DNA of 48,550 bases from Synechococcales cyanobacterium GL140_1_metabat_312 (GTDB lineage: Bacteria; Cyanobacteriota; Cyanobacteriia; Leptolyngbyales; Leptolyngbyaceae), in the NCBI GenBank assembly GCA_025351345.1, contig JANXWB010000098.1, positions 1 to 48,550 on the forward strand, read 5' to 3'. The translations under genes and the position numbers were made by a program. Under the pieces are notes generated by a model. That model was not told the origin of the DNA, ran no database searches, and worked only from the letters and a program-made list of their open reading frames with translations. Numbering within the stretch: the stretch's first letter is position 1; every line of letters begins with the position of its first letter. Positions 24,736 through 32,919 of this stretch are shown one piece after another.

Positions 24736-27528
24736 TTAAGGGGAAAGCATAGGAAGCCGATCGCCCTCAGTCATAAGTGCAACAGGTGGTTTAATCACAA
24801 ACTCTAAACGTTCTGTATCGCCCACTTTGACCACAATAGTATCTCCTTCCTTGCATTCACCTTTAAGGATCTGTTTTGCAATTAAAGTATCAAGTTCACG
24901 TTGAATAACCCGTTTGAGTGGACGCGCGCCGTAGACTGGATCATAGCCTGTTTGTGCAATGAAATCGATCGCAGATTCTTCCATTTGTAAGGTCAATGAT
25001 TTTGCTTTCAATCGTTTGGTTAAAGACTTTAGGCGAAGTTCAACAATGCCGCGAATTTCGATTTGGCTGAGGGCATGGAAAATAATGGTTTCGTCAATCC
25101 GATTGAGAAACTCTGGACGGAAACTCGATCGTAAGGTTTCGAGGACTCTCGATCGCATTTCTTCGTATTTACTTTCATCACCCACAACATCCAAAATGTA
25201 TTGCGACCCAAGATTGCTGGTCATAATAATGACGGTGTTCTTAAAGTCCACAGTGCGACCTTGGGAATCCGTCACCCGTCCATCATCTAGAATTTGCAGC
25301 ATGACATTGAACACATCAGGATGAGCCTTCTCAATTTCATCAAACAAAATCACCGCATAGGGCCGCCGCCGAATCGCTTCGGTAAGTTGTCCGCCCTCAT
25401 CAAATCCAATATATCCAGGCGGGGCACCAATCAATCGCGATACGGATTGTTTTTCCATATATTCGGACATATCAATTCGCACCATTGATTCTTCAGTGTC
25501 AAACAAATAGCCTGCTAATGCTTTGGCAAGTTCTGTTTTGCCGACTCCTGTGGGACCGAGGAAGATGAATGATGCGATCGGACGATTAGGATCGCCGAGT
25601 CCAGCCCGCGATCGTAAAATTGAATCCGCAACGGCTTGTACGGCTTCGTTTTGGCCGATAACCCGATCGTGCAATTCGTTTTCTAAATTGAGTAGTTTGT
25701 CCATCTCTGATGCAATTAGTTTAGTAATGGGAATCCCAGTCCATTTACTAATCACGTCAGCAATATCATCTTCAGTCACTTGATTGCGTAACAATGATTT
25801 CGTTGATAATCTATCTAATTTTTTTTGCAGAATTGACAGAGTTCCATACTTCAGCTCTGCGGCAAGTTCATAATTTTCATCCTCTTCGGCTTGTTTGAGT
25901 AGTTCATTGGTACGTTCTATATCTTCTTCGATTATTTTCATTGATGTTGGCTTATCAGTTAAACGTTGTTGAAAGTCGTCTAATTTCTTTTGTAATAACG
26001 CGAGAGTCTCGTATTTCAATTTTGCGGCAAGTGTGAAGTCATAGTTATCTTCTGCCTGTTTCAGAGCATCACTTGCTTGTTTCATTTCTTCTTTTATTTT
26101 TTTCAGATCGTCTAGACCATTTTTCTCCATTTCCCATTGAGCATTCAGTGAACTTTGTTCTTCTTTAAAATTTGCAAGTTCTTTCTCTAGACGTTCTAGT
26201 CGATTACGAGATCCTTTGTCCTCTTCTTTTCGGAGTGATAAACGCTCCATTTCCATTTGCAAAATCTTACGATCGATTTCATCTAGTTGTTGAGGTTTAG
26301 AAGTATTTTCCATCTTCAATTTTGCTGCTGATTCATCAATCAAATCAATCGCTTTATCGGGCAAAAACCGATCGCTGATATACCGATCGGACAAAACGGC
26401 GGCGGCGACTAGCGCACTATCCGAAATCGTGACTCCCTCATGGTGACTTTCATAGCGGCTCCTGAGACCCCGTAAAATCGAAATAGTATCTTCTACCGTG
26501 GGTTGATCGACAAAAACTTGTTGGAATCGCCGTTCTAGTGCCGCATCTTTTTCAATATATTTACGATATTCATTTAAAGTTGTTGCACCAATGCAGCGCA
26601 ATTCACCCCGTGCCAACATTGGTTTTAATAAATTACTGGCATCCATGGCTCCCTGAGTTGCCCCAGCACCGACGACGGTATGAATTTCATCAATGAATAG
26701 AATGATCTTTCCTTGAGAATCGGAGACTTCTTTGAGAACTGCTTTTAGGCGTTCTTCAAATTCTCCACGATATTTTGCGCCTGCAATTAGTGCGCCCATA
26801 TCCAAGGAGAACAATTTTCTATCTTTCAGTGATTCCGGTACGTCACCATTAATAATTCGCTGGGCTAATCCTTCAGCGATCGCAGTTTTCCCTACACCTG
26901 GTTCACCAATTAGCACCGGATTATTTTTAGTCCGACGTGACAAAATTTGAATAGTTCGACGGATTTCGTCATCCCGACCAATGACTGGATCAAGTATTTT
27001 ATCGCGCGCATATTGGGTTAGATCACGACCATATTTTTCAAGAACTTCGTATTTGTTTTCGGGCGTTTGGTCGGTCACTTTTTGATTACCTCGGATTTGA
27101 TCGATCGCGGTTTTAAGTTTAGCTTCAGTTAGATTAAATTCAGACAGTAGGGCTTTACCAAATCTGCCGTCTTGTGCGTAACTCAATAAAATATGTTCAA
27201 CAGAAATGAAGCTGTCATCGTAGTCTTTGCGGAATTTCTCGGCCCGATCGAGCAAGCTATCTGCCGATCGTCCAAAGTAGATGTTAGAACTATCGCCGGA
27301 GACTTTGGGTTGTTTGGCGATGAAGGCGGCGGTCCGATCGCGCCATTGGGACACAGAAATATCGAGTTTTCCAAGAACATTCCCCACGAGTCCATCCTGA
27401 TCAAGCAGGGCGCTGAGGAGATGCTCGGATTCAATTTGCTGTTGTTGGGCGGATTTCGCAATCTCAGGAGTGCGGGCGATCGCCTCCCAGGCTTTTTCGG
27501 TGAATTGGTCAGGGCTGTTGGGTTGCAT
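24736..27528 (-). CDS. clpB: ClpB disaggregase with duplicated middle-domain segment
   Basis: From ATG 27528 ([17 protein letters not shown]) this is a 930-residue Hsp100 protein. It has the N-terminal Clp repeats (1-150), AAA module 1 with GEPGVGKTA and IDEIHT, a long coiled-coil middle domain, and AAA module 2 with [20 protein letters not shown] and the pore segment [13 protein letters not shown]. ClpB usually has about 875 residues. The extra 55 are a tandem duplication in the middle domain: [22 protein letters not shown] and then [21 protein letters not shown]. ClpB works with DnaK to dissolve protein aggregates. The upstream in-frame start at 27579 adds residues unlike the family. Confidence 0.95.
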
Positions 27529-27690
27529 GAGGACGATCTCCCTCCTTCTATCGGTCTCCTTAGTATTGTAGAGAATCACGGAGATTTAGAGCGATCGGGC
27601 GACCGAAACGTGACAATACTGGTTGCCGTAATTTATTCCGGGTTGGAGGGGCGATCGTAACGCTGGCGATCGCGTTAGAATACCATCCGT

Positions 27691-29001
27691 ATGCACCATC
27701 ACTTGACTTCTATGAATCAGGATTTACTTCAGCAATTTCAGGCCGCTTATCGGGATTTAGATCTATTCCCCTTGATCGAACCTGATATGATCGAAAAATT
27801 GCGTGTGGAATATGGACGAGAAGTCTTGCTAAGATTGAAGCAAGAAGTTGATGGTGGTGCGAGAGACGGCAAAGTTGTATTTACTGGACATCGAGGCTGT
27901 GGGAAATCAACCTTGCTTAAACAATTCTCAAATGAGATGCAGTCCAAATACTTCACTGTATTTTTCTCCGTAGCTGATTCGATTGAGCTATCAGCCGTTA
28001 CTCATACTAATATCCTGTACGCGACTGGTATTATGCTGCTGAGTAAAGCGACAAAAGCGAATATTCCGATTGACGCAACTACCAAACAAGTTCTGCTGGA
28101 ATGGACAAATCAGGATAAGAAAACTTCTGAGAAAACTATAAAAAATGGTGCTGAACTAGAGGTCGATTTACAGCTTGTAACGCTCAAGCTCCAGCGAGAA
28201 GGAACGTTTCGGGATGAGATTGAGAAGACTTTCGAGAGACGGATTACGGACTTAGTGCTATGTCTCGATCGGTTAGCTGCAATGATTCAGAATACGATGA
28301 AGAAGCCTGTTTTAGTGATTATTGATGATCTTGATAAATTAGGTTTAAAGGCGGCAGAAAAAATTTATGTAGATAATCTGAAATCACTGTTCTCACCTGC
28401 GTTCAAGATGCTGTTGACGGTTCCAATTGAGGCAGTGCGAAATACGGATATTATGGCATCTTTGACGTCAGAAGGCGTTGTGCGTCCCCGGATATTTCCT
28501 GTATTGAAGTTTTACTCTCGTAACGATGTGCGTCGGGTAGAGGCGGAACCGATCGCAAAGAATATAGCCATATTTGAAGAAGTGGTCAAACGGCGGTTTC
28601 CGGCTGGGACAATAGCCCCGGATACTGCGCGTAAAATGGTATTGCTGAGCGGTGGTGTGATGCGGGAGTTAGTACGATTAGGGAGGGAGTGCTGTTTAGA
28701 ATGTATGGTGCAATGTGAGCTAGAACCTGATGGAACGACCATTCAAGTGAATGATGAAATTCTGGCGATCGCTGTGCGAAATCTGAGAAATGATTTTGCT
28801 CGTCTGATTGGAGATATGGAAGAAGGTTATTCAGCTTTGACTCAGGTTTATGACACTCTAAAATCTTCACCGAAGGCTAATTTCAATAAATTACTTCATG
28901 GATTGATGGTGTTGGAATACGAGAATGATGCGATGTGGTATGACTTACATCCGATCGTGTTGGATCTTTTGAAACGTGAAGGCATGGTTGCAGAGGCATA
29001 G
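27691..29001 (+). CDS. P-loop ATPase of an ATPase/TPR two-gene module
   Basis: The 436-residue protein has a Walker A motif GHRGCGKST at 66-74 and a Walker B VLVIIDDLD at 207-214, with the KAP/STAND-like layout: the P-loop near the N-terminus, a charged helical insertion (about 135-190) and a helical C-terminus. The sequence after Walker B includes LLTVPIEAVRN and GGVMRELVRLGRE, like the sensor and arginine-rich regions of STAND or ORC-type ATPases. There is no membrane segment. The next gene starts 3 bases after its stop, so the two should act together. Start is ATG 27691 or ATG 27712. Function is unknown; a conflict or signalling role is inferred from the neighbourhood. Confidence 0.8.
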   Translation: MHHHLTSMNQDLLQQFQAAYRDLDLFPLIEPDMIEKLRVEYGREVLLRLKQEVDGGARDGKVVFTGHRGCGKSTLLKQFSNEMQSKYFTVFFSVADSIELSAVTHTNILYATGIMLLSKATKANIPIDATTKQVLLEWTNQDKKTSEKTIKNGAELEVDLQLVTLKLQREGTFRDEIEKTFERRITDLVLCLDRLAAMIQNTMKKPVLVIIDDLDKLGLKAAEKIYVDNLKSLFSPAFKMLLTVPIEAVRNTDIMASLTSEGVVRPRIFPVLKFYSRNDVRRVEAEPIAKNIAIFEEVVKRRFPAGTIAPDTARKMVLLSGGVMRELVRLGRECCLECMVQCELEPDGTTIQVNDEILAIAVRNLRNDFARLIGDMEEGYSALTQVYDTLKSSPKANFNKLLHGLMVLEYENDAMWYDLHPIVLDLLKREGMVAEA

Positions 29002-29004
29002 ATT

Positions 29005-30645
29005 ATGGATGAGGATATTGCAAAATCAAATCAACGTAATTTTCGCAGAATGGTGTTGTCGGCGAAGGCGAGTTATGGTGCGTTGAGTTTGATTGTGGCG
29101 GTTTGTGATAATCCTCGTTATCGGGATGAATTGATTGAGTCCTATGAAGCTGAGTTATCGGCGGAAGGGGTGGATTGTTTGCGGGTGACGATCGATCGTA
29201 ATGAACCGAGTTTAAAACAGGCTTTGAGTGAATTGGTGGAGGAGAACGGTGAATTTTGGGAGCGGCATTGTATTGTAACAGCGATCGGCGGGGATGAGCT
29301 TTTAAATGTGCGGTTGAATGCTGAGAAGTCTGAGCAGGAACGGTTTGCTTACTCTTTGCAATGGACGAGAGAATCGTTCCGAAGGTTTAAAGCGCCGATC
29401 GTAATCTGGATGGATTCGTCTATGGTGGCAATGATTTCAGGTCAGGCAAAAGATTTCTGGAGTTGGCGGACAGGACCGTTTGAGTTTGAACGGGAGATCG
29501 AATATCAGCCGATCGATCAGCTACAAGAGTTTAAACCGTCGAAGTATAGTGATGAATCGACCGCTGATCCATTTGAACTTGAACAACAAATCAAAGTTTT
29601 ATGGGTCGATGATCTCTCGTCCCCATTGCTTCCAAGTTTGTATCAAAGTTTGGGAATTGCTTATCAGAAGCGGACTGAACAGGGAAAGGCAATCGATTAT
29701 GTGCAAGAACAACAATTAGGAATTGAGGCATTGGAGAAGGCGATCGAACTTCAAGAGCCTTTGGGTAAGAAAATAGAACTTGCAACGAGTCTGAATAATT
29801 TGGCATTATTGTACGAATCGATGGGACAGTACGATCGGGCATTGCCATTGTATGAAGATGCATTGGAAATCAGGAAATCGGAGTTAGGCGATCGACATCC
29901 CGATACCGCAGCGAGTCTGAATAATTTGGCATTATTGTACTACTCGATGGGACAGTACGATCGGGCATTGCCGTTGTATGAAGATGCATTGGAAATCTGT
30001 AAATCGGAGTTAGGCGATCGACATCCCTCTACCGCAACGAGTCTGAATAATTTGGCAGGATTGTACTCATCGATGGGACAGTACGATCGGGCATTGCCGT
30101 TGTTTGAAGATGCCGTTGATATTCTTGAAGAAGTTCTTGGGTCGGAACATCCGAACACTAAAGCGGGACAAGAGAATTTGCGAAGCTTACGGGAGAAGAT
30201 GGACGATGAACAAGCCGATACTGCAACGAGTATGAATGATTTGGCAAACTTATACTATTCAATGGGTAAGTATGAGCAAGCATTACCACTATACGAGCAA
30301 GTCTTGGGAATTAAACAAATAGAACTGGGCGATCATCATTCTGATACTGCAATGAGCCTGAATGATTTAGCAAACTTGCACTATTCAATGGGTAAGTACG
30401 ATAAAGCATTGCCATTATATGAACAAGCCGTTGATATTTTTGAAGAAATTCTTGGGTCTGAACATGAGCATACTAAAATATTGAAGACGAATTTTCAATC
30501 TGCTCGTCAGAAAGTATATTTGGTCAAAGAGAATGCTATTCTTCAAGCCCTTCCCCTTCTCGAAAAAGCCCTCGGCTCCACGCATCCGATTACTCAAGCG
30601 AAACGGCAGGAACTAAGTCAGCTACGTGAGAGAATGATGAACTGA
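29005..30645 (+). CDS. TPR protein with uncharacterised N-terminal domain, partner of the ATPase
   Basis: The 546-residue protein has two parts. Residues 1-200 form an alpha/beta domain (LSLIVAVCDNPRYRDELIESY, VDCLRVTID, PIVIWMDSSMV, DFWSWRTGPFEF) that I associate with cyanobacterial proteins encoded beside ATPases of this type; it lacks a P-loop. Residues 255-500 carry five kinesin-light-chain-type TPRs of 42 residues (SLNNLALLYYSMGQYDRALPLYEDAL pattern), the first three nearly identical. The domain order suggests a nucleotide-like fold sensing or relaying signals, with TPRs for partner binding. A degenerate TPR fragment of similar sequence lies at 32926-33060. Confidence 0.82.
   Translation: MDEDIAKSNQRNFRRMVLSAKASYGALSLIVAVCDNPRYRDELIESYEAELSAEGVDCLRVTIDRNEPSLKQALSELVEENGEFWERHCIVTAIGGDELLNVRLNAEKSEQERFAYSLQWTRESFRRFKAPIVIWMDSSMVAMISGQAKDFWSWRTGPFEFEREIEYQPIDQLQEFKPSKYSDESTADPFELEQQIKVLWVDDLSSPLLPSLYQSLGIAYQKRTEQGKAIDYVQEQQLGIEALEKAIELQEPLGKKIELATSLNNLALLYESMGQYDRALPLYEDALEIRKSELGDRHPDTAASLNNLALLYYSMGQYDRALPLYEDALEICKSELGDRHPSTATSLNNLAGLYSSMGQYDRALPLFEDAVDILEEVLGSEHPNTKAGQENLRSLREKMDDEQADTATSMNDLANLYYSMGKYEQALPLYEQVLGIKQIELGDHHSDTAMSLNDLANLHYSMGKYDKALPLYEQAVDIFEEILGSEHEHTKILKTNFQSARQKVYLVKENAILQALPLLEKALGSTHPITQAKRQELSQLRERMMN
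29782..30474 (+). repeat. 126-base tandem repeats encoding TPRs
   Basis: Units begin at 29782, 29908 and 30034 (spacing exactly 126) and, after a spacer, at 30223 and 30349 (again 126). The first three are almost the same DNA sequence over most of their length. The last two form a second, more divergent subgroup. Recent unit duplication or gene conversion is likely. Confidence 0.88.
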
Positions 30646-30656
30646 GAATGCAAAAA

Positions 30657-31022
30657 TCATTCCCGTTGAAGATATTGATAAGTCTCACTCTTTAAACAAT
30701 CCAACAACTCCAACAGCTTCTTCAATCGATAGGTTTTAGTCACCAATTCCGTTTGAGGTAACGATCGGTCGAGATCTCCCAACATCGATCGCGTCTCACT
30801 AAAAATATGTTCACTAAAAAACTTAATCAACTTCGATCGTGTTTCCGACGCCAGTGGCACCAATTGCAACTCCGCCGTCTCCCCATCAAGTTCAAGCTGG
30901 ATTGGCTGCGATCGTCCTAGCTTCGAGAACTCCGATCGGGCCAACCACTCGTAAAAATCATCAATCACTCGAATACTATGATTCGCTTGACCATTACCAG
31001 AGTAAAAACTAATGCTTAACAT
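30657..31022 (-). CDS. Hypothetical protein (second gene of a minus-strand pair)
   Basis: A 121-residue soluble protein with no recognised family. It opens with beta-like segments (MLSISFYSGNGQANHSIRVIDDFYEWLARSEF as pattern of short strands and a helix) and ends in a helical charged region. It is 15 bases downstream of the 146-residue gene on the same strand, so they form an operon. It converges on the TPR gene with 11 bases between stops. Part of its coding sequence (about residues 28-60) recurs as degenerate fragments at 31577-31671 and 32233-32319. Confidence 0.6.
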   Translation of the reverse strand: MLSISFYSGNGQANHSIRVIDDFYEWLARSEFSKLGRSQPIQLELDGETAELQLVPLASETRSKLIKFFSEHIFSETRSMLGDLDRSLPQTELVTKTYRLKKLLELLDCLKSETYQYLQRE

Positions 31023-31037
31023 GGTACACCACGCAAA

Positions 31038-31475
31038 TTATTCATCTGTAAACTCAGACAGCGGAACATTCTCGGCATACACAATTCCCGCTTGATCTAA
31101 TTTTAACCGACTTGGCTGAGAAATATTTCCCGCACTGACAATCCCAATCACTGTCCCCTGTTGAATAATTAGCTCAACCTCCTTCCCATATAAATACTGC
31201 GTCTTAATCTCCACATGAGGATTATTTGCTGTCATCACCGGACGACTGATCACATCACGATCGAGATTAAACTGCGATTGCATCCTATCTAGCAATTTCT
31301 GAACTCGTGGAATATCCCCAGGATTAATAACAACGATGTCACCTTTCTCATCATTTCCGTAAGTCTCTTCACAGGGAATTCCTTGCTGTAAAAGAAGTTC
31401 GATCGTCCACAGCTTCAACGCCTTGTGTAATTGTAAAACCCTAATCAAACGATCTTCGTCTGAAAGTTCAGACAT
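31038..31475 (-). CDS. Hypothetical protein (first gene of a minus-strand pair)
   Basis: A 145-residue protein from ATG 31475, chosen over GTG 31478 because AAAGGA lies 7 bases before the ATG. It has a helical N-terminus (DRLIRVLQLHKALKLWTIELLLQQG), then beta-rich segments (GDIVVINPGDIPRVQKLLDRM, LIIQQGTVIGIVSAG). No family is recognised. Its position next to the ATPase/TPR pair and upstream of the toxin-antitoxin genes suggests accessory status. Confidence 0.6.
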   Translation of the reverse strand: MSELSDEDRLIRVLQLHKALKLWTIELLLQQGIPCEETYGNDEKGDIVVINPGDIPRVQKLLDRMQSQFNLDRDVISRPVMTANNPHVEIKTQYLYGKEVELIIQQGTVIGIVSAGNISQPSRLKLDQAGIVYAENVPLSEFTDE

Positions 31476-31576
31476 CACGGATTCCTTTCATCAATACATT
31501 GATATTCTCATTAACTTTAGCAAACATTCAATCAAATTCGCTGGCATCGCCTCCCGGAACGGAAATCGTGTTTCTG

Positions 31577-31773: not shown

Positions 31774-31989
31774 ATGACCAAAGAATTTAATGTCGTAATT
31801 GAACGAGATAATGATGGCTATTTTGTTGCCTCTGTCCCCAGTCTGCGTGGTTGTCACACTCAGGCAAAATCACTAGATGAACTCATGGAACGCATTCAAG
31901 AAGCGATCGAGCTTTGTCTAGAGTTTGAAGAAGTCAGCAGTGAACCAATGGAATTTGTGGGAATTCAAAAGGTTTTGGTTCAGCTATGA
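31774..31989 (+). CDS. HicB-family antitoxin
   Basis: The 71-residue protein has the short HicB fold: FNVVIERDNDGYFVASVPSLRGCHTQAKSLDELMERIQEAIEL is the partially degraded RNase-H-like signature of the family (DGYFVA.VP.L.GC...G.). HicB binds and blocks the HicA toxin. The helix-turn-helix seen in longer HicB proteins is absent, as is usual for this short class. Its last four bases overlap the toxin start (ATGA at 31986-31989). The order antitoxin-toxin is the reverse of E. coli hicAB. Confidence 0.92.
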   Translation: MTKEFNVVIERDNDGYFVASVPSLRGCHTQAKSLDELMERIQEAIELCLEFEEVSSEPMEFVGIQKVLVQL

Positions 31990-32210
31990 GTCAACTTCCC
32001 AGCCTGACCGGACAAGAAATGATCCGAGTACTCAAAAAACAAGGATTTACTGTTGCACGAATCAAGGGCAGTCATCATATTTTGATTCATCCTGACGGAC
32101 GAAGGACGGTTGTGCCTGTTCATTCTGGAGAAACGATCGGTAGTGGTCTTGTGTCACAGATCTTACGGGATTGCCAGATCACCAAAGACGAATTCAAGGA
32201 TATGCTTTAG
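31986..32210 (+). CDS. HicA-family mRNA interferase toxin
   Basis: The 74-residue protein has the double-stranded RNA binding-like HicA fold with the catalytic His: GFTVARIKGSHHILIHPDGRRTVVPVHSGETIGSGLVSQILRDC. The G-S-H-H element and the VPVH strand are the family hallmark. HicA cleaves mRNA and arrests growth when its antitoxin is lost. The gene overlaps hicB by four bases, and fragment C of a decayed gene lies right after its stop. Confidence 0.93.
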   Translation: MSQLPSLTGQEMIRVLKKQGFTVARIKGSHHILIHPDGRRTVVPVHSGETIGSGLVSQILRDCQITKDEFKDML

Positions 32211-32232
32211 ATAGGACACCAACATCAATCGC

Positions 32233-32319
32233 GCCGCCAATGGTAACGCTGCCGCCATCTAGTTCAAGCTGGATTGGTTGCGATCGTTCTAGCTTCGAGA
32301 ACTCCGATCGGGAATTGAG
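32233..32319 (-). pseudogene. Gene fragment C, second decayed copy
   Basis: Nearly identical to fragment B over its last 60 bases (two differences seen) and ends with the same GGGAATTGAG. On the minus strand it reads RSEFSKLERSQPIQLELDGGSV, again matching part of the 121-residue gene. B and C are in direct orientation on either side of hicBA. Confidence 0.75.
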
Positions 32320-32365
32320 GAGAGCGATCGATTATAATCAATCATAGAATCACGAGAACAGCCGG

Positions 32366-32650
32366 ATGCCTCCATTTGGATTTGAGTGGAATGAAGAAAA
32401 AGCTGAAGCCAATTTGTGGAAGCACAACGTTCCCTTTGCAGAAGCAACGACCGTGTTCAATGATCCCAACTGCCTGATTATGGATGATCAAGAACACTCG
32501 AAAGGCGAAGCTCGGTTTATCATCATTGGTCAATCGATCGTCAAACGTCTTCTACTCGTCATTCACTGCGATCGTAATGACAACATCCGGATCATTAGCG
32601 CTCGACCTGCGACATCTGCCGAAAAACGACTGTATGAAAAAGGATTGTAA
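32366..32650 (+). CDS. BrnT-family toxin
   Basis: The 94-residue protein begins FEWNEEKAEANLWKHNVPFAEATTVFNDP, the BrnT signature (W..K...N..KH.V.F.EA..VF.D), followed by RFIIIGQSIVKRLLLVIHCDRNDNIRIISARPATSAEKRLYE, with the conserved IR-IISAR-A strand and E-K-R-YE end. BrnT is a RelE-like ribonuclease toxin. Two bases separate its stop from the partner gene at 32653. Confidence 0.93.
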   Translation: MPPFGFEWNEEKAEANLWKHNVPFAEATTVFNDPNCLIMDDQEHSKGEARFIIIGQSIVKRLLLVIHCDRNDNIRIISARPATSAEKRLYEKGL

Positions 32651-32652
32651 TC

Positions 32653-32919
32653 ATGACGACAGAACCCAAACAAATGGATAACGAAATGCTCGAAGACTAC
32701 GACTTTAGCCGCGCGACTCGTGGAAATCCCTATCGCGATCGCCTTAACCGCACCGTCACGATCGAAACCACCGATGGTCCCGCTCATGTCGTTCAAATCA
32801 AAACAGTAGAACTCATCGCGACCATTGCAGAAGACGGCACTACCACGCTTAAGCTTCCACCCAACATCACCCCTGGAACACATCGCATTACGTTGCTAAT
32901 TCAAGAAGAACAAATGTAG
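32653..32919 (+). CDS. BrnT-associated antitoxin with a non-standard C-terminus
   Basis: The 88-residue protein has the short antitoxin motif EMLEDYDFSRATRGNPYRDRL seen in small cyanobacterial partners of BrnT. The remaining half (VQIKTVELIATIAEDGTTTLKLPPNITPGTHRITLLI) is a predicted beta-sheet segment rather than the ribbon-helix-helix DNA-binding domain of classic BrnA. The usual BrnA autoregulation may therefore be absent. Position directly after brnT supports the pairing. Confidence 0.72.
   Translation: MTTEPKQMDNEMLEDYDFSRATRGNPYRDRLNRTVTIETTDGPAHVVQIKTVELIATIAEDGTTTLKLPPNITPGTHRITLLIQEEQM

Follow-up and report, generated by a model that had tools for sequence, protein, structure and literature searches.

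A stretch of 48,550 nucleotides from the genome of Synechococcales cyanobacterium GL140_1_metabat_312 (contig JANXWB010000098.1; the window below) carries on its forward strand two closely spaced genes, one for a P-loop ATPase and one for a repeat protein. The first open reading frame (ORF; 27691..29001) codes for an ATPase of 436 amino acids of the AAA+/STAND kind (signal transduction ATPases with numerous domains; ATPase_2-like). Its Walker A motif GHRGCGKST comprises residues 66-74 (27886..27912) and its Walker B motif VLVIIDDL residues 207-214 (28309..28332), with aspartates at positions 212 and 213. The TAG stop is separated from the ATG start of the second ORF by a spacer of 3 base pairs (bp), ATT (29002..29004), which suggests co-translation of the two genes. 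The second ORF (29005-30645, plus strand) encodes a partner protein of 546 amino acids. It starts with an alpha/beta domain of about 200 residues that lacks a P-loop, here called the N-domain (residues 1-204, 29005..29616), followed by an array of tetratricopeptide repeats (TPRs; residues about 262-499, 29788..30501), predicted to be a sensor or scaffold arm. Pfam matched TPR_10, the 42-residue type of TPR, in five stretches of the partner. In a preliminary description, made from the DNA letters, the P-loop protein with both motifs, the gap of three bases and a partner with an alpha/beta domain and five 42-residue TPRs had been recognized, and all were found at these places. At the DNA level Tandem Repeats Finder located a 126-bp tandem array at 29782-30113 (2.6 copies, 93% matches) which covers part of the TPRs; this repeat is young.

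The pairing of the two genes is conserved. We picked 110 loci by their ATPase and searched every ORF with an N-domain profile. For 96 of the 109 full-length ATPases in these loci an N-domain gene was present on the same strand at most 1 kilobase (kb) downstream, with a median gap of 11 bp. Adjacency, therefore, is no chance event. Gaps in 93 pairs ranged between -83 and 846 bp; in roughly one pair in three the genes overlapped. Contig ends account for several of the 13 exceptions. Two belong to a three-gene variant, as its first ATPase, and have the N-domain gene 2.2-2.3 kb on. In one locus (L066 7405-7983) an ORF with NNH1, the NACHT N-terminal helical domain 1, follows an ATPase up to the contig end in place of an N-domain gene. 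A natural fusion of ATPase and N-domain in one polypeptide was not found in the ATPase-selected loci. The window's own genome contains a second, distant pair (28% identity). The tree distances of the ATPase and N-domain cores were correlated (Mantel r = 0.86). When partners were swapped within multi-pair genomes r reached at most 0.78, i.e. none of 2000 swaps attained the observed value, and the cognate assignment was better in 33 of 37 contrasts (four against). The earlier proposal that the two proteins work as one unit is supported by the conserved adjacency, the matching trees and the second pair.

The ATPase was present in 41 of 58 related genomes. In an even sample of the class (291 genomes) distribution was patchy, with the ATPase in 167 (E 1e-15) and the N-domain in 189 genomes. 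Several paralogues exist per genome, and several ATPase copies carry stops or frameshifts. In genus g41 (e.g. G142, G172, G134, G178) many ATPase copies have internal stop codons, which suggests that these genes turn over rapidly. No match was obtained in viral contigs or phage records, the N-domain alignment being too weakly conserved for a viral scan. The pair is not confined to one phylum because it is also located on a plasmid from Acidobacteriota (ATPase E 8.9e-50; overlapping ORF with an N-domain, E 8e-8, and TPRs). There, a frame with the N-domain motif (L180 9194-10858) opens upstream of the RefSeq start (9875) of the Acidisarcina TPR gene and overlaps the ATPase gene; the RefSeq start seems to be too late.

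The ATPase passed the Pfam threshold for ATPase_2 (PF01637; 38.3 bits, cut-off 33.2, E 1.6e-9). Other matches, mostly sub-threshold, were to AAA_16, NACHT, KAP, DAP3 and ORC-CDC6-like families. The C-terminal region is helical or winged-helix-like. In the 93 paired ATPases G66, G69, G71 and K72 of the Walker A motif are invariant and D212 of Walker B is present in 91. Arg302 (28594..28596) is also found in 93 of 93 and is a candidate trans-acting or sensor arginine. A PADLOC scan of the window pair returned only partial P-loop or TPR matches and no confident known anti-phage protein.

The N-domain is a different matter, and its earlier description as uncharacterized stands. A profile search with residues 1-206 of the partner brought up nothing credible in Pfam (lowest E 0.39, for PilP), NCBIfam or PADLOC. 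Similarly, 54 homologous N-domains had no credible Pfam family, no family matching more than one of the 54, and a PDB sequence search detected no relative. Across the 93 pairs a Walker A motif is present in all ATPases and in none of the N-domains. The Walker-B-like strand of the N-domain has a conserved G at its end, followed two residues further by E or D. Nearly invariant are R122 and D150; the other conserved residues are mostly hydrophobic or aromatic, and no catalytic set is evident among the conserved residues of the 93. The two outcomes named beforehand as speaking against the pair, rare adjacency or an N-domain from a known housekeeping family, did not turn up: 96 of 109 ATPases have the neighbour, and Pfam has no family for the domain.

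AlphaFold2 models were built from alignments of only three or four sequences. The N-domain modelled alone (3 sequences) gave a predicted local distance difference test (pLDDT) of 57, a predicted template modelling score (pTM) of 0.54 and four beta-alpha units (beta1-a-beta2-a-beta3-a-beta4-a). The 50 solved structures listed as matches of this model were of AAA+, STAND or RecA type, led by TnsC (Z 10.6, 146 residues); further matches were ORC/Cdc6, Sir3 AAA+, EfAvs5 and the ZAR1 resistosome. When ATPase and N-domain were folded as one chain by reading through the in-frame TAG, both parts folded and a fifth strand, beta5, appeared in the N-domain. In this joint model the N-domain matched TnsC with Z 12.9, ORC2 with 11.9 and Sir3 AAA+ with 11.1. 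The ATPase matched RdrA of the RADAR system (Z 12.6), Cdc6/Orc1 (12.1), paby2304 (11.2) and Avs3 (11.0). PF01637 and these matches place it with the STAND/ORC-type enzymes, in agreement with the initial assignment to STAND-like ATPases. A trustworthy interface between the two parts was not obtained in the joint model (pTM 0.38). Structure prediction, suggested at the outset as a check, thus yielded an AAA+-like N-domain fold of low confidence and no reliable complex. At the level of the fold, and as predicted by the models, the N-domain is probably a catalytically dead AAA+/STAND-like domain.

What the N-domain is joined to differs between relatives. Partner groups were derived by clustering of the ATPases, and domain content is known for the scanned members. 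In the window's group (31 pairs) scanned partners are N-domain-TPR proteins; C-terminal parts in the group are 223 to 676 residues long, and the N-domain remains steady near 204. In the largest group (51 pairs) most partners contain a second P-loop, and the scanned members have an N-domain, a TPR-like region, nSTAND1 and often WD40. A small group (clade 3, four pairs) has partners of about 1800-2100 amino acids. The two which were scanned consist of N-domain, NACHT-type NTPase and TPR; hence, the N-domain sits where the effector of a nucleotide-binding leucine-rich repeat receptor (NLR) would be located. Tandem DNA repeats occur in 58 of the 93 partner genes and in none of the 93 ATPase genes. 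TPR and WD40 genes generally carry tandem DNA repeats, and those of the partners are consistent with a sensor role, no more. Two genomes, G001 and G003, contain the 126-bp repeat family of the window at several scattered loci (about 82-84%).

ATPase-TIR fusions were encountered in two genomes, on a Calothrix plasmid and in G133 (TIR_2, 4.5e-33 and 8.9e-33). The locus on plasmid4 of Calothrix NIES-4101 (L099 6824-14331) is composed of an ATPase, an ATPase-TIR fusion and a protein in which two N-domains stand in tandem; there are as many N-domains as ATPases, two of each. Nostoc sp. C057 has the ATPase as the rear part of a fusion with a SAV_2336-type protein, adjoining genes for MoxR and a VMAP-M1/VMAP-C protein. 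In this MoxR-vWA-VMAP system the ATPase occupies the C-terminal slot to which Kaur et al. assign effectors. Plasmid copies of the pair adjoin NB-ARC, TIR, NACHT, HicAB, CHAT and recombinase genes. A role in biological conflict is proposed mainly because of the TIR and VMAP fusions, the NLR-like partners and the plasmid neighbours; judged from sequence, the associations with TIR, NACHT, nSTAND1 and VMAP now lend it better support.

Pairing, matching trees, loss of the P-loop and domain associations are established by computation. Our reading, held with modest confidence, is that the pair constitutes a split, two-protein NLR-like (STAND) switch in which an active and a dead AAA+ domain co-assemble and the repeats sense, probably as part of an undescribed defence or signalling system. 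The first protein would be the active ATPase. The dead AAA+/STAND domain of the second would dock on it as inactive subunits do in ORC and in clamp loaders, and would tie the ATPase to a rapidly changing TPR arm. A ligand on this arm may either unlock or drive the assembly of active with dead AAA+ domains in an ATP-dependent manner, and the resulting higher-order complex would trigger the response. Physical contact, assembly into a ring, sensing by the TPRs and an action against invaders such as phages are what we infer. The pair had been described as a sensor-effector unit. The unit holds; a catalytic effector is not visible in the window pair. Rather, ATPase and N-domain look like a switch because the N-domain takes the N-terminal position of NLR-like proteins in relatives and is probably a dead AAA+/STAND domain; the repeats look like a variable sensor arm. 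The couple of ATPase and dead domain would be a portable signalling module that serves different sensors and, occasionally, a fused effector, because relatives join the dead domain to TPR-nSTAND1-WD40 or NACHT-TPR and the ATPase to TIR. More tentatively, and with doubts that slightly prevail, this may extend to an undescribed cyanobacteria-wide module of an AAA+ ATPase and a pseudo-AAA+ domain in the NLR effector position, in which TPR, NACHT-TPR and nSTAND1-WD40 sensors act via one heteromeric AAA+ machine and TIR is an occasional executor.

Several observations weigh against the split switch. The GxP motif in the winged-helix region of classical STAND clades is mostly absent: the window has SGGVMREL, and a proline at position 324 is present in only 7 of 93 ATPases. 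For this reason the ATPase was kept out of the classical clades and filed, by sequence, as STAND-like AAA+. The AAA+ fold of the N-domain comes from models of low confidence (pLDDT 57, 3 sequences), Foldseek by itself gave no E under 0.001, and a profile comparison detected no homology between N-domain and ATPase family. The matching trees demonstrate co-inheritance, not contact, and linked inheritance alone could produce them. A catalytic effector is not visible in the window pair; few relatives have a fused one and most pairs show none. PADLOC matched 51 families in 115 neighbours of other pairs and 23 in 115 control ORFs, yet the figure of 51 is inflated by redundant methyltransferase models and counts are small, i.e. 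the excess over control regions is not convincing. Finally, solitary N-domain-TPR proteins exist, with relatives in 31 of 39 genomes; in the window's genome an ATPase partner was not seen close to the gene. The one in that genome (contig C1 25063-27048; L004 / L174) is a protein of 679 amino acids with a divergent N-domain and repeats, adjoins a thiG-like ORF and is possibly a domesticated relative.

Some of these points would also suit a STAND-type regulator of ordinary physiology, e.g. of stress, development or transcription, with a TPR arm that detects a metabolite or a host protein and an ATPase that switches a response inside the cell. MalT and mycobacterial IniR (PMC5760070) are STAND-like ATPases with TPR-like arms, and an ORC/Cdc6-like fold, as modelled, could bind nucleic acid. 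The window pair lacks a fused effector and PADLOC enrichment is unclear. The TIR fusions and the associations with VMAP/MoxR, NACHT and nSTAND1 argue in the other direction, as does a patchy, multicopy and plasmid-borne distribution with decayed copies. We consider a non-immune regulator unlikely, though less so than any other alternative. Next, the N-domain might be a different Rossmann-like domain, maybe an enzyme or effector, and its AAA+ resemblance an artefact of shallow models. The low pLDDT, the alignment of three sequences, the weak Foldseek E-values and the missing profile link to the ATPase would fit. However, the same order beta1-a-beta2-a-beta3-a-beta4-a came out of both predictions, the fused model adds beta5, and there Z climbs to 12.9 with AAA+ on top. 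The conserved residues, R122 and D150 beside mostly hydrophobic or aromatic ones, form no evident catalytic set. This renders the explanation rather improbable.

The genes around the pair bring up two more explanations. A ClpB-type gene (24736-27579) adjoins it, and TPR proteins like Ycf3 assist in photosystem assembly; accordingly, the pair might serve housekeeping as a chaperone or assembly factor whose TPR protein brings clients to the ATPase. Yet a search at E 1e-15 left 124 of 291 genomes without a match to the ATPase, there are several paralogues per genome, the pair occurs on plasmids and in Acidobacteriota, and the closest relative (clpB 92% identical in DNA) has neither ATPase nor N-domain beside clpB. 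A housekeeping role is thus very improbable. In this relative (L189 3447-3893) an ORF that codes for TPRs only and contains the 126-bp repeat of the window starts shortly after clpB; the contig ends in the repeats and misassembly is possible. Downstream of the window pair, at 1-2 kb, are HicB-like and HicA genes (31774-32210) and a BrnT toxin gene (32366-32650), and one plasmid copy also adjoins HicAB. That the pair is an accessory of HicBA or BrnTA is hardly credible: two opposite-strand genes intervene in the window, HicAB is beside only one annotated plasmid copy, and annotated loci contain pairs without toxin-antitoxin neighbours. The toxin-rich surroundings, mentioned in the preliminary description, did not prove to be a general rule; a toxin-antitoxin link was not seen across the annotated loci, and the count of defence genes around other pairs was not clearly above the controls. 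Because of this lack of a convincing PADLOC excess the toxin-rich setting is no evidence for the function of the pair. The two intervening genes (30657-31022 and 31038-31478, minus strand) are small, convergent to the pair, follow it directly and have no family matches. Of five related genomes that were searched, G003 alone has a relative of the first gene, at 42% identity. In the region 31774-32919 a short ORF after BrnT occupies the position of BrnA; it has no Pfam match.

Should the more tentative, cyanobacteria-wide version hold, one class of prokaryotic NLR signalling would be run by an ATPase motor on a protein of its own, and the N-terminal domain would be the docking unit. If the split switch is correct, inactive AAA+ domains serve as N-terminal partners of NLR-type receptors. 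Many uncatalogued cyanobacterial proteins, named only ATP-binding, TPR or WD40, would belong to one conflict or signalling system, and prokaryotic immunity would be linked to ORC-like rings of mixed active and inactive subunits.

How does the pair compare with known systems? The papers that were searched yielded no description of the N-domain or of its pairing with the ATPase, and to our knowledge no ATPase_2 protein with this kind of partner has been described. According to the passages of PMC8195603 which cite Leipe et al. (2004), MNS is a STAND clade that includes the Npun2340/2341 family, named after Nostoc punctiforme genes. The window ATPase may be a member of this family, which is a lead only. 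RADAR RdrA and the archaeal ATPase_2/ORC-Cdc6 ATPases are the closest folds for the ATPase model; yet the partner is an N-domain-TPR protein, the RdrB deaminase is absent and the resemblance to RdrA is structural only. With bNACHT and Avs proteins the family shares the coupling of a STAND ATPase to C-terminal repeats, and clade-3 partners even combine N-domain, NACHT and TPR in one protein. In the window, however, the repeat arm is on another protein than the ATPase, and a putative dead ATPase stands at the N-terminus in place of a nuclease, protease or TIR domain.

Inactive STAND domains as such have precedents. iSTAND and iSTAND2 are inactive STAND proteins which form the third component of MoxR-vWA ternary conflict systems and are frequent in cyanobacteria (Kaur et al., 2020; 2021). 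The likeness consists in an inactive STAND domain in a multi-gene, NTP-dependent system, and one ATPase relative is indeed fused in a VMAP ternary locus. In contrast, the putative dead domain of the window family is accompanied by an ATPase of its own and not by MoxR-vWA, and homologues of the MoxR, SAV_2336-type and VMAP proteins of the Nostoc locus are absent from the window. nSTAND2 consists of two adjacent STAND-core genes, of which one is active and the other has lost much of its NTP-binding motifs, is mobile and conflict-linked, and was predicted to form a toroidal hetero-multimer (Kaur et al., 2021, PMC8195603). In the window family the genes are adjacent (96/109) and a Walker A motif is present in one protein (93/93) and not in the other (0/93); the plan would resemble nSTAND2 as far as the N-domain is of STAND/AAA+ type, which low-confidence models suggest. 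Membership in nSTAND2 is unsupported: PF20702 matched none of the 58 genomes, the window's included, though none of the 14 control genomes either, and did not come up when 61 ATPases and 54 N-domains were compared with Pfam. Further, the inactive nSTAND2 partner is associated with GT4 or HEPN effectors, whereas scanned partners of the window family carry TPR, NACHT or nSTAND1-WD40. The pair is real, conserved and under-described, and probably varies the known theme of active and inactive STAND pairs.

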